The notes under the pieces: model-generated
Databases searched by the model: none
Seen by the model: only the letters and a program-made list of their open reading frames with translations
What the model was told of the DNA's origin: nothing
From: Synergistaceae bacterium
GTDB lineage: Bacteria; Synergistota; Synergistia; Synergistales; Aminobacteriaceae
Assembly (NCBI GenBank): GCA_017445405.1
Contig: JAFSUD010000017.1
Location: forward strand, 1-64,000
Direction of reading: 5' to 3'
DNA length: 64,000 bases
Shown: positions 51,097 to 56,748 of the stretch, piece after piece
Position numbering within the stretch: position 1 is the first letter of the stretch
Layout: each line of letters begins with the position of its first letter
Made by a program: the position numbers and the translations under genes

Positions 51097-51110
51097 AGCG
51101 TCTTTAAACG

Positions 51111-51458
51111 CCGTTCACTTTTCGTAGAGATATATTAATGCTTCATCGGCAGGTATCACGTCCTGCACGCTGTCAGGTGATGTTATGTAAGGCAGCTCTG
51201 CAGGGATAGTCGGATTCTCAAGTAGGAATAAGGCAGTCTGCAAACTCATCAAACATATTCTCAAGCGGTGAAGCAGGAAGCAAGCCGTTCACTTTTCGTA
51301 TAGTTCTATCAATGCTTCGTCGGAAGGTATCACGTCCTGCACGCTGTCAGGTAATGTTACGTAAGGCAGCTCTGCAGGGATAGCCGGATTCTCAAGTAGG
51401 AATAAAGCAGTTCGCAAACTCATCAAACATACTCTCAAGCGGTGAAGCAGGAAGCAAG
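51111..51458 (-). repeat. Two extra copies of the helicase 3' end, 174-bp unit
   Basis: The last roughly 112 bp of the helicase-nuclease gene, with its stop, recur at 51111 and 51285 (gene copy at 51459), exactly 174 bp apart each time. Each extra copy carries the same linker of about 62 bp (containing GATGAGTTTGC on the minus strand) in place of the upstream coding sequence. The two right-hand copies differ at four of about 112 positions; the leftmost differs more. Confidence 0.9.
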
Positions 51459-51462
51459 CCGT

Positions 51463-54400
51463 TCACTTTTCGTATAGTTCTATCAATGCTTCGTCGGAAG
51501 GTATCACGTCCTGCACGCTGTCAGGTGATGTTATGTAAGGCAGCTCTGCAGGAATCGCCGGATTCTCAAGGCTGCACCAATATCTGAATACACACTCTCC
51601 GCATGCCTCTAAATCTCCCGTCCTGTGCTCAAAGTCTATTTCCTGAATCTTGCTCACTACAGCATCAAAGCCCTTCACTACTTCTTCAGCCCTGCTCTCG
51701 TCATAGGGATACACTATCTCAGGAACATTCCACTCTTCGCCCGTGTAGTACAGCTTCATCCTCGCAACCTTAAGCCCCAGTGCATGAACAGCCAGATACG
51801 CATACACGTTTACCTGCCTCCTGCAGTTCTCCAGCCTCTCGCGGTCGCTGCTGATGTTCATATTGGGCTTCGTCCCGCTCTTGAAGTCTATTATCTCCGT
51901 CTCGCCGTCCCTGATTCTCACAAGGTCTATTTTCCCCTCAAGGATATATTCATCGCGCACAAGATTCACTTCTGCTTCTGCCATCGCTATTCCAGACCAG
52001 TCATTGCCCTGAAGGTGCACGTAATGCATCACCTGACTAAACGCCGTCTTCCTTGAGGCCTCGCTCAAATAGGCTAGGTCAGTACGCGAGAGCTTCTCAT
52101 AGTTCGCCGCAAACCACTCCGCAATGTTAGGCTCGGTGATATTGTGCTCCTCGTGATTAATCGCTGCACGGTGAATGTCCTCAATCGTCGTGTGCACAAG
52201 TTTTCCCAAAAATGTAGTCTGCGATAACCCCATAGGGAACTCAAGCTCACGGAAGAACTTATACTGCATAGGGCATGTCTCGTAAGTCAGTATGTGCGAC
52301 GTGAAGGAGTACGTTTTCCGCAGCCCCGAGTCTCTGGGCGCATCAAGTTCAACCTCTGAGGGCGCAAATATGTCGTCCGTGTCCTCGAGCGTGTTATATG
52401 CTGCCTCGAGATACTTGCTCGGAGTCTTGGCGTTCTCGTTGCATGTCAGCACCAGCATATTCTGCGCACGCGTGAACGCAACGTAATACATCCTCCAGAA
52501 ATCGAACAGCTTTATTGATTCACGAGGCTCAAACTCAGGACGGCGTGAGTGCTTCTCCGTGATGCTGCTTATAAGCTCATTGTTCCAGTCCTGACGCAGT
52601 GCCGGATCCGGTTCCGCCCACAGCGAGTCAACGAACACTACCGGAAACTCCCTGCCCTTCGCCTGATGAATCGTCATGAACGCTACATGCCCTGAAGGTA
52701 TGCTCTCGTAATCGCTCTCGTACTCGTCGAGGCCTTCATCAATCCTGAAGCGCAGGTAGATATTCATCATCATCTCAAACTGTTTCGGCAGGTTGTCAGC
52801 CTTGATGTTGTTGATGCCGTAGCTCCGCTCGTAGTCCCTGAAGACCTGCACAAGCCGGGCAAGATTTCTGGACGGCCGAAGCTCCTTCACGCCTCCGTCA
52901 ATGCGGACGCTCAGTGCATGAGAGAAAGGCTCGTAAGCGAACAGCTCATAAAGCAAATCCGTATATATGTAGTGCGTGTATCCGGCCTTGAGGCTTCCGT
53001 GATATCTGCGTCTCCTGAGCAGGTGCTTCTTCAGCCCGGCAAAGTTCGGCCTGCTGATGTACCTCGCTACAACCTGAAGGCAGCCTTTGTAGTAGTCTAT
53101 TGCGTCATTGTCCCTGAACGATCCGGACTCTAAGTCCTTCAGGTACGAGGGGAACATTGAGATGAGGCAGCCCACCGCAAAACGTATCTCCATTCTTGTG
53201 AAGAACAGGTTAGAGCGCGGAGAGTAAACGTTGATGCTGTTTGCCTCGAGGAAGTGAGCGAGTTTCTGCACGCCTTCAGCACGCACCGACCTGAAGAGAA
53301 ATGCTATCTGGCTGTAGTCCTTCAGAGTCCCAGAGTCGCGCAGTGAATTGATGAACGATAATATCTTCTCGCGCCAGCCCTCCTCGTCGCCGATACCTGC
53401 GAGCCTCATCACTGAAGGATATTTACTCGCAGGCCTGAAGGCTTCGAGCTTCTTCGCGTGCCTGAAGTTCTCCCACGAGAAGAACTCGTCCGTACTGTCC
53501 ATCCACCGTGAGGCAAAGTTCAGTATTTCCGGAGATGACCTGTAGTTCAGCATGAGCCGGACTATCTTGCACTCGCTCTTTCCCCACTTGTCAGGAAACT
53601 CGAGAATATTTCTCACTGTCGCACCCCTGAACCTGTAGAGACTCTGGTCATCATCGCCTACTACGCATATATTTCTGCTCTCCGCACCTATCAGGAAGAC
53701 TAACTGCTCCTGAACATAATTTGTGTCCTGGTACTCATCAATCATGATGTAGTTAATCTTGCGCTGGAGGCTCTCCAGAATCTCCGGGTTGTCGCGCAAT
53801 AGCCTGTACGTCTCAACAAGCAATGATGAGTAGCTCATGCAGTTTCTCTCCTTGAGGAGCTTTGCGTGTACCTGCATTGCCTGACCGAGTGCTGACGCTG
53901 CAGGGTCGGGATCGCGGACGAGTTCCTCCGGGTCGGTGAGTTCTTCAGAGAGCTTGCTGATGTAGTCGCGGAGTTCGCATGACCGCCTCCACTTGCCGGG
54001 AAACCTGAAGACTCCTTCAATGCCGGGAATTACCGAAAAACGCTTGAAGTACTGCATAATCATGTTGGCATGTCCGAACTCGTCAAGTATCCTGAAAGTC
54101 TTTCCGAGTCCTGTGAACTCTGAATATTCCCTGAGAATACGCGAGCATATTACGTGAAAAGTCCCTGCATACATTGAGCCGGTGTCAGCAAGAATATTCC
54201 GTGATGATAGTGCTTCGGATATGCGGGTGATGAGTTCCTGCGCTGCCTTGTCCGTGAACGTCGCCATCATGATGCTTGAGGGCTTCACGCGCTTCTTCTG
54301 AATCAGGAACACCGCACGCTGAACAAGAGTGTACGTCTTGCCTGTGCCCGGTCCCGCAATTATCAGCATCGGGCCGTTCGACGCTGTGATGGCTTCCTTC

Positions 54401-55740
54401 TGTGCCTCGTTCGCTGTCCCGAAATCGAAATCCGAGAAATCTTCCGCCTTCAGTTCTTCGGGCTGGGGCTGTTCAGGCTGGGATGAGTACTTCTCCTCTT
54501 GGCCGAGATACTCGAGCATGTAGTCTTTGGGCTTCTTGGCCGAGCAGAATTTCACGATGGACTTATCAGCAGCTAGGAGGTCTTTTCGGGAGACGAGGAT
54601 AACGCATTCAGACTTTGAGCCGTCGAGTCCTGCAGGAGCAATCTCTTCTGAGTAAGCGGCCAGATTCTCGGGAAGGTCATAGTGAATCACGAAGCGTATA
54701 TCCTTGCGCGTTATCTGACGGTGAAGGCGTGAAGGGAGTATCTCTATGTAATCGTCAAGATTCGGGTAATCACGCAGAATTTCCCGGAGTCTCCAGACTG
54801 ATTCAGGAGTCGAGCAGTAGATAACTCCGTGCTGTCCTGTCTTGTCTGCGAGCAAGTCCTGAAGTGCGGAAGCCCGGTTGTCTGTGCGCAGTATCTTCAT
54901 TGAGGCATCGGGTTTGATGAAGCCGGAGACGATTCTGACCGGAGACCGCAGGTATTTGTAGGCCTCCTGACGGTCTGCCGGACTCGTGGAGTGCACAAAG
55001 ATTCCCCTAGCTATGCGCTTCCTGCTGAGGGACTCGAGAAATGCCGTGCAGCCTTTGAGGGAACTCGTGAGCATGACGGCAAAAGACACCTCGCACTTGC
55101 CGAGTGATGCTCTCGTGTCGTCCTGTGAGAGCAGATCCAGAGCAGCATAGAGTACCTTGACGATTCCCCCCTTGACCTTGCGGAAGAGTTCACGCTTCTT
55201 TGCGGGAGTCGCTGATGCAGAGAGAGCCTCCGAGTGAGAGTCAATCTCCGGGTAATCATGTTCCGAGTCTGTGATGACGAGAGTAACTCCGGGCATGAGC
55301 AGGGCAGAAAGCCGGAAACATATGCTGCTCCCTGAGTGTCCGGGCATTGAGCAGAAGACATCACGTCCCGAGAGGATCGCCTCGACGATCTCCTCCTGGC
55401 CGGGCATGAACGAGTCGAGTCCGAAGTGCTGGCGCAGGAGCGAGACGAGGTAGCTGGGCTTCTGGGGCTTGGGAGTCTCGGGCTGAGGGAGCGGAGAAGG
55501 CAGCATGACAGGAGCAGGCTCGGGGCGGGACTTGAGGCCGTCGATTTCTGCCTGAAGCGATGCGGTGAGCTTTTGGGCTTCGCCGAGCTGAGTCCGTAAG
55601 GAGGCTAACTCTTGTTCCTTGCCTGCGAGCTGCGCATTAAGAGACGCGAGCTGTTCATCCTGCTGTGCGATCCGCTCGTTCAGCAGCTTAGTCCTTAAAT
55701 TCAGTATGTCCTGTACCTGTTTCTGCTCTTCTGGTGTCAA
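51463..55740 (-). CDS. Multidomain helicase-nuclease: degenerate RecQ, UvrD helicase, Fe-S PD-(D/E)XK nuclease
   Basis: 1425 residues. Residues 10-75 form a coiled coil and 76-96 a Pro-rich linker. Residues 97-412 follow RecQ (FGLDSFMPGQEEIVEAILSG), but Walker A reads MPGHSGSSICF, losing its Lys, no DEAH box is visible, and motif VI reads EEIAPAGLDG, losing both Arg. From about 440 an intact UvrD/PcrA helicase follows: AGPGTGKTYTLVQRA, MIDEYQDTNYVQEQ, VGDDDQSLYRFRGA, MTIHQAKGREFPVVF, YVAFTRAQNML. The C-terminus is a PD-(D/E)XK nuclease (LEGKIDLVRI, EIIDFKSGTKP, QVNVYAYLA) with Cys in YETCPMQYKFF and CGECVFRYWC, as in AddB/Cas4 iron-sulfur nucleases. It probably processes DNA ends or foreign DNA. 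Confidence 0.88.
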   Translation of the reverse strand: MTPEEQKQVQDILNLRTKLLNERIAQQDEQLASLNAQLAGKEQELASLRTQLGEAQKLTASLQAEIDGLKSRPEPAPVMLPSPLPQPETPKPQKPSYLVSLLRQHFGLDSFMPGQEEIVEAILSGRDVFCSMPGHSGSSICFRLSALLMPGVTLVITDSEHDYPEIDSHSEALSASATPAKKRELFRKVKGGIVKVLYAALDLLSQDDTRASLGKCEVSFAVMLTSSLKGCTAFLESLSRKRIARGIFVHSTSPADRQEAYKYLRSPVRIVSGFIKPDASMKILRTDNRASALQDLLADKTGQHGVIYCSTPESVWRLREILRDYPNLDDYIEILPSRLHRQITRKDIRFVIHYDLPENLAAYSEEIAPAGLDGSKSECVILVSRKDLLAADKSIVKFCSAKKPKDYMLEYLGQEEKYSSQPEQPQPEELKAEDFSDFDFGTANEAQKEAITASNGPMLIIAGPGTGKTYTLVQRAVFLIQKKRVKPSSIMMATFTDKAAQELITRISEALSSRNILADTGSMYAGTFHVICSRILREYSEFTGLGKTFRILDEFGHANMIMQYFKRFSVIPGIEGVFRFPGKWRRSCELRDYISKLSEELTDPEELVRDPDPAASALGQAMQVHAKLLKERNCMSYSSLLVETYRLLRDNPEILESLQRKINYIMIDEYQDTNYVQEQLVFLIGAESRNICVVGDDDQSLYRFRGATVRNILEFPDKWGKSECKIVRLMLNYRSSPEILNFASRWMDSTDEFFSWENFRHAKKLEAFRPASKYPSVMRLAGIGDEEGWREKILSFINSLRDSGTLKDYSQIAFLFRSVRAEGVQKLAHFLEANSINVYSPRSNLFFTRMEIRFAVGCLISMFPSYLKDLESGSFRDNDAIDYYKGCLQVVARYISRPNFAGLKKHLLRRRRYHGSLKAGYTHYIYTDLLYELFAYEPFSHALSVRIDGGVKELRPSRNLARLVQVFRDYERSYGINNIKADNLPKQFEMMMNIYLRFRIDEGLDEYESDYESIPSGHVAFMTIHQAKGREFPVVFVDSLWAEPDPALRQDWNNELISSITEKHSRRPEFEPRESIKLFDFWRMYYVAFTRAQNMLVLTCNENAKTPSKYLEAAYNTLEDTDDIFAPSEVELDAPRDSGLRKTYSFTSHILTYETCPMQYKFFRELEFPMGLSQTTFLGKLVHTTIEDIHRAAINHEEHNITEPNIAEWFAANYEKLSRTDLAYLSEASRKTAFSQVMHYVHLQGNDWSGIAMAEAEVNLVRDEYILEGKIDLVRIRDGETEIIDFKSGTKPNMNISSDRERLENCRRQVNVYAYLAVHALGLKVARMKLYYTGEEWNVPEIVYPYDESRAEEVVKGFDAVVSKIQEIDFEHRTGDLEACGECVFRYWCSLENPAIPAELPYITSPDSVQDVIPSDEALIELYEK

Positions 55741-55767: not shown

Positions 55768-56748
55768 TCACTTCACTAACGGCTTCCACCAATCTTCATT
55801 CTTGAGATACCACGCTATAGTTTTCTTTATTCCCTCTGCAAACCTCGTCTCAGGCAGCCACCCCAGACGCAGATATATCTTTGTCGGATCAATAGCGTAG
55901 CGCAGATCATGGCCTTTCCTGTCAGTAACAAAATTAATCAGGCTCTCGGGCTTGCCGAGTTCGCGGCATATCAGCTTCACAATGTCAATATTCCTCATCT
56001 CGTTATGCCCGCCTATGTTGTAGATTTCCCCCGCAGAGTCAGCGTCGTGAATAATCATGTCTATTGCTCTGCAGTGATCCTCAACATACAGCCAGTCCCG
56101 CACATTAATTCCTTCGCCGTAAACTGGCAGCGGCTTATCATGAAGTGCATTGATGATCATTAACGGAATTAGCTTCTCGGGGAAATGATAAGGCCCGTAA
56201 TTATTCGAGCAGCGGGAGATACTCACAGGAAGGTTATACGTTCTGTGATACGCGAGCACAAGCATATCTGCTCCTGCCTTTGATGCAGAATAAGGCGATG
56301 ATGTGCGTATAGGCGTTGTCTCCGTGAAGAACATATCCGGACGGTCGAGGGGCAAATCTCCGTAAACTTCATCAGTGCTGACCTGATGATAACGCGTTAT
56401 GCCGAACTTCACGCACGCATCTAGCAATACGCCAGTTCCCAGAGTGTTGGTGAAGAGAAATATTCCCGGGTCGTTGATGGAGCGGTCAACATGGGACTCA
56501 GCTGCAAAGTTCACCACAACGTCAGGCTTCTCACGTTCAAACAATGCATATACTCTCTCCCTGTCGCATATATCCATGTGGAAGAACGATATTTTGTCCT
56601 GCGCAATGATGTCCTTCAAGGTGTTGATGTTCCCGGCATAAGTGAGCTTGTCGATGCATATTATTCTGTCTTCCGGATGAGCCTTCAGCATGTGAAATAT
56701 AAAGTTGCTCCCGATAAAGCCGGCTCCCCCTGTAACGATTATCTTCAT
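55768..56748 (-). CDS. rfbB: dTDP-glucose 4,6-dehydratase
   Basis: Second step of dTDP-L-rhamnose synthesis. 326 residues: TGGAGFIGSNFIFHML for NAD, HQVSTDEVYGDLP with the Thr-Asp-Glu catalytic residues, and YSASKAGADML with the Tyr-x3-Lys pair. It overlaps rfbC by 4 bp and ends the operon rfbA-rfbD-rfbC-rfbB. Confidence 0.96.
   Translation of the reverse strand: MKIIVTGGAGFIGSNFIFHMLKAHPEDRIICIDKLTYAGNINTLKDIIAQDKISFFHMDICDRERVYALFEREKPDVVVNFAAESHVDRSINDPGIFLFTNTLGTGVLLDACVKFGITRYHQVSTDEVYGDLPLDRPDMFFTETTPIRTSSPYSASKAGADMLVLAYHRTYNLPVSISRCSNNYGPYHFPEKLIPLMIINALHDKPLPVYGEGINVRDWLYVEDHCRAIDMIIHDADSAGEIYNIGGHNEMRNIDIVKLICRELGKPESLINFVTDRKGHDLRYAIDPTKIYLRLGWLPETRFAEGIKKTIAWYLKNEDWWKPLVK

Follow-up and report, generated by a model that had tools for sequence, protein, structure and literature searches.

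The gene at positions 51463..55740 on the minus strand of the 64,000-nucleotide stretch of Synergistaceae DNA analyzed here (the window) is a fusion gene encoding one chain of 1425 amino acid residues. It has a TTG start, and a G-rich stretch (ggagagg) lies a little 5′ of the start codon. An rmlB-like gene on the same strand (55768..56748), named by sequence as that of a dTDP-glucose dehydratase, is located 27 bp upstream. The chain contains, in order, an N-terminal coiled coil (residues 1-75; 55516..55740, minus strand), a RecQ-like region, a UvrD motor and a PD-(D/E)XK nuclease, the last two intact. A preliminary description of this locus had given the same order of RecQ-like, UvrD and nuclease parts, which is borne out by the reading frame and by 23 other full-length homologues that are collinear with the window protein at 38-66% identity. 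Residues 1-24 are strongly conserved (74% mean pairwise identity), and the C-tail past residue ~1390 is missing from most homologues. A tandem repeat of a 174-bp unit in 2.6 copies (51110..51570, strand not assigned) is the duplicated 3′ end of the gene and gives the window protein its C-tail. The draft genome to which the window belongs (G000) comprises 2.5 Mb; its relatives include the named Synergistaceae bacterium RGIG2313, from goat duodenum.

The RecQ-like region spans residues 97-412 (54505..55452, minus strand) and comprises two RecA-like folds. The N-terminal region of the window protein matched the RecQ model TIGR01389 (E=4e-33) and the PDB RecQ core of E. coli, 1oyw (E=2e-20); neither RQC nor HRDC was seen in residues 97-412. 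With this core and with canonical Synergistaceae RecQ it shares both RecA-like domains, in sequence and in predicted fold, as well as motif 0 (residues 111-116; 55393..55410, minus strand), in which F111, G114 and Q115 are invariant in 24/24 full-length homologues. Unlike RecQ, the fusion proteins have no DEAH, no motif VI arginines and no RQC or HRDC match, and they have often lost the Walker A Lys. In the window protein DEAH would be expected at residues 214-225 (55066..55101, minus strand). The motif VI remnant (residues 367-374; 54619..54642, minus strand) has P369 and L372 in place of the RAGR arginines, and the Walker A remnant GHSGSS (residues 134-139; 55324..55341, minus strand) is without Lys. 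When compared with canonical RecQ, all 30 members of the fusion family lack both DEAH and the motif VI arginines, and a still-active RecQ was rejected on that ground. Canonical Synergistaceae RecQ shows 150 conserved columns, of which 81 are almost entirely lost in the fusions and 23 are retained, many of the latter in motif 0 and around motif I. In a tree, the pseudo-RecQ parts group together in a single clade that adjoins canonical Synergistaceae RecQ. Judged from these profile and PDB matches and from the missing catalytic motifs, residues 97-412 are a RecQ-derived, ATPase-dead module, as the preliminary description had proposed.

Its claim that the Walker A Lys, DEAH and motif VI Arg had all been lost holds for the window protein but not for the family, since Lys138 is present in 13/24 full-length homologues and in 19/30 overall; the remaining homologues have S, M, R or L at this position. 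An intact Walker A Lys, which the preliminary description had named as evidence against its claim if found in the clade, therefore does occur there, yet the recent point loss that it was meant to reveal was rejected because no member has motif II or VI. The absence of DEAH and the motif VI arginines in all 30 indicates that loss of the RecQ ATPase is old and ancestral. The state of the Walker A Lys changes 6 times on the UvrD-nuclease tree; only its loss came later than that of motifs II and VI, and repeatedly.

An AlphaFold2 model built with 20 aligned homologues, mostly RecQ, reached a pLDDT of 86, and Foldseek with this RecQ-guided model ranked RecQ first, with a TM of 0.78 to 1oyw and 4tmu. 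The structural comparison suggested earlier for residues 97-412 thus came out in favor of RecQ, although the alignment behind the model was weighted toward RecQ and the match indicates compatibility with that fold rather than independent proof of it. AlphaFold2 from two sequences only gave a pLDDT of 34 and no usable fold.

Residues 438-1140 (52321..54429, minus strand) form a UvrD/PcrA-type SF1A helicase with intact motifs, and residues 1141-1390 (51571..52320, minus strand) a PD-(D/E)XK nuclease with a four-cysteine Fe-S signature. Pfam places UvrD-helicase at 443-716 (E=3e-68), UvrD_C, and PDDEXK_1 at 1147-1388. The Walker A of the motor is AGPGTGKT (residues 462-469; 54334..54357, minus strand) and its motif II is DEYQDT (residues 668-673; 53722..53739, minus strand). 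The key residues K468, D668-E669, Q699, R734, K1028 and R1091 of the helicase are all present, as are H1183, D1272, D1285, K1287, Q1309 and Y1313 of the nuclease and the signature cysteines C1156, C1380, C1383 and C1389, in agreement with the intact motifs described before. These residues are nearly invariant across the fusion homologues, and the UvrD motor is apparently active. The fusion of G055 (L031:1498-5961) carries the changes H1025R, Q1026N and K1287R; because of H1025R and K1287R, activity may not be universal among the fusions.

Homologues of residues 438-1390 occur as stand-alone genes in a mobile family of UvrD-PDDEXK helicase-nucleases, with ~40-50% identity to WP_121262361.1 of the Enterococcus plasmid pEC369 (operon at L080:12001-19244). 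The mobile proteins have the same motifs and cysteines as the fusion, and the fused clade nests within their family. In 25 of 30 high-scoring stand-alone loci, mod and res follow the UvrD-nuclease gene, so that the operon encodes the helicase-nuclease, a DNA methyltransferase and a Res-like helicase with a TnsA-like end. It was found on plasmids, phages and chromosomes, and the three genes are annotated on Enterococcus, Vibrio, Blastomonas and Tunicatimonas plasmids and in a phage. A Priestia plasmid has a stand-alone copy with divergent partners, and in G124 (L046:513-10971) a second methyltransferase and a HerA-like ATPase follow the three genes. PADLOC 2.0 has no model for the Res/TnsA-like protein and gave the fusion protein generic matches only, to GajB and RTasHel (UvrD part) and to DpdF (RecQ part). 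No name for the operon was found in the libraries and papers searched. Neither the operon nor the fusion was found described in open-licence papers, which is weak evidence of absence.

On the UvrD-nuclease tree, the fused copies group in a single clade (support 100), next to stand-alone copies from G033 and G124, from Lachnospiraceae and from a gut phage. The sequences show one fusion event, in which a coiled coil and two RecQ RecA-like folds were joined to a UvrD-Fe-S-nuclease. The fusion was found in 30/43 genomes of the genus, which belongs to Synergistaceae and consists of gut bacteria, 24 times at full length, the others being mostly broken at contig ends. In G037 (L077:7556-11314) the fusion frame ends early and resumes in another frame, through a frameshift or an assembly error. 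G033 has a stand-alone UvrD-nuclease instead of the fusion. Twelve of the 43 genomes have neither the fusion nor an intact stand-alone copy; since one of these is 100% complete, the fusion is not essential. The fusion-less G045 has a short stand-alone UvrD-nuclease remnant (L049:4869-5327). Outside the genus, no fusion was found among 188 searched genomes of the phylum, and the stand-alone form was found in one, G124. Searches of plasmids, phages, virus contigs and genome contigs gave stand-alone forms only among the matches listed, no pseudo-RecQ was found in viral contigs, and a single-protein scan of genome contigs gave no match. The same domain order, for which a search in other genomes had been proposed, is thus common within the genus and was not found beyond it.

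We slightly favor the reading that the fusion is a genus-specific, vertically inherited single-chain helicase-nuclease in which the dead RecQ recognizes, the UvrD motor moves and the nuclease cuts. By sequence, the ATPase motifs of the RecQ part were lost early, and this part remains under purifying selection. The UvrD motor, with the 3′-5′ polarity expected from its family, would unwind or translocate on DNA, the nuclease would trim it, and the dead RecQ, chiefly through its motif 0/I face, would bind a DNA structure or a partner and so govern substrate choice. From its conservation and by analogy with AddB and RecC, the dead RecQ probably serves to bind DNA or a partner. Its likely job would be the processing of chromosomal DNA ends or forks, beside AddAB. 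As for function, we infer most probably a domesticated, single-chain processor of DNA ends that relies on a RecQ pseudo-helicase for recognition.

The main competitor, to which we give about half that credence, is an orphan defence effector that breaks down foreign DNA, either by itself or together with methyltransferase and Res partners in trans. The preliminary description had also offered a defence enzyme, and this suits the closest relatives, which lie in plasmid- or phage-borne, restriction-modification-like operons with a DNA methyltransferase and a Res/TnsA-like protein. It suits the present gene less. The stand-alone mobile genes lack the RecQ part, and mod and res usually lie next to them, whereas the fusion is an orphan on the chromosome, with methyltransferase and Res/TnsA genes absent from beside the fusion loci. 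A Res partner was not found in 28/30 fusion genomes; the two carriers with Res are G046, in which it is broken, and G049, whose mod-res pair together with the fusion speaks for the defence reading. The gene is mostly found at a conserved chromosomal site next to rml genes and not in a defence island; the rml cluster adjoins it in many relatives, as does a conserved small convergent ORF. The fusion gene tree broadly agrees with the AddB tree; with the latter rooted by choice on G033/G045, the fusion changes between present and absent 4 times, as one gain and three losses could produce.

It is improbable that the RecQ region is simply carried along, as a remnant of the fusion that is decaying and has no more than a structural role. 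Domain 2 and the motif II and VI regions are variable (36-45% identity), and the zinc domain has been lost everywhere except in G055, the most divergent member, which retains the RecQ zinc-binding domain (PF16124, E=6e-6) but not the catalytic motifs; the zinc-domain cysteines are not in the window protein. In close species pairs, however, dN/dS is low in both folds (0.07-0.23 in RecA-like domain 1 and 0.10-0.19 in domain 2, compared with 0.08-0.13 in UvrD), and of all segments measured conservation is highest in residues 97-155, with 78.9% mean pairwise identity against 73.1% in UvrD motifs I-Ia. By these measures the RecQ region is under purifying selection and is not decaying.

Less probable still is a nucleotide sensor that binds ATP without hydrolysis and gates the UvrD motor. 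The invariant glutamine of motif 0 and the Lys kept by 19 of the 30 members would fit such a sensor, but the sixfold change of Lys state, the GHSGSS of the window protein and a Tyr within the P-loop even in Lys-retaining members argue against it.

The dead helicase domains of AddB and RecC recognize Chi (PMC4824097), and the fusion resembles AddAB/RecBCD in combining a dead helicase, a live SF1 motor and an Fe-S nuclease. Their dead domain is SF1 (PMC4824097) and sits in a separate subunit, whereas that of the fusion is SF2 RecQ in the same chain. The comparison with AddB made in the preliminary description thus stands as a functional analogy and not as kinship, separate AddA- and AddB-like proteins being present. 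The fusion protein scored far below the curated cut-offs for addA and did not match addB. Despite the shared ingredients, replacement of AddAB/RecBCD by the fusion as the genus's main processor of DNA breaks was rejected as very improbable, as AddB-like proteins occur in 42/43 genomes and the window genome has both an AddA-like (G000:C77) and an AddB-like gene (G000:C40). This also answers the earlier call for an addAB check, and because both genes are present AddAB of the window genome is probably intact.

We propose more tentatively, at somewhat under even chances, that an SF2 RecQ pseudo-helicase became a built-in recognition domain, so that an AddB/RecC-like plan arose independently through domestication of a gene from a mobile restriction-modification-like operon. 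If so, the plan in which a dead helicase reads, a live helicase moves and an Fe-S nuclease cuts would have had a second origin, starting from another helicase superfamily and within one chain, and could then be tested in a single protein. It would also link a widespread mobile helicase-nuclease/methyltransferase/Res operon to a chromosomal, possibly repair-related gene.

Canonical recQ was found in the genus only in G033 and G045. This distribution does not show that the fusion simply replaced canonical recQ: the carriers are without recQ, yet it is present in just 2/13 non-carriers. The window genome also encodes a RecQ-family helicase (G000:C37; L175:4531-6675) with intact motifs, which looks active and has a ComF/phosphoribosyltransferase-like C-terminus, and similar RecQ-type ORFs occur in G022, G059 and G061.
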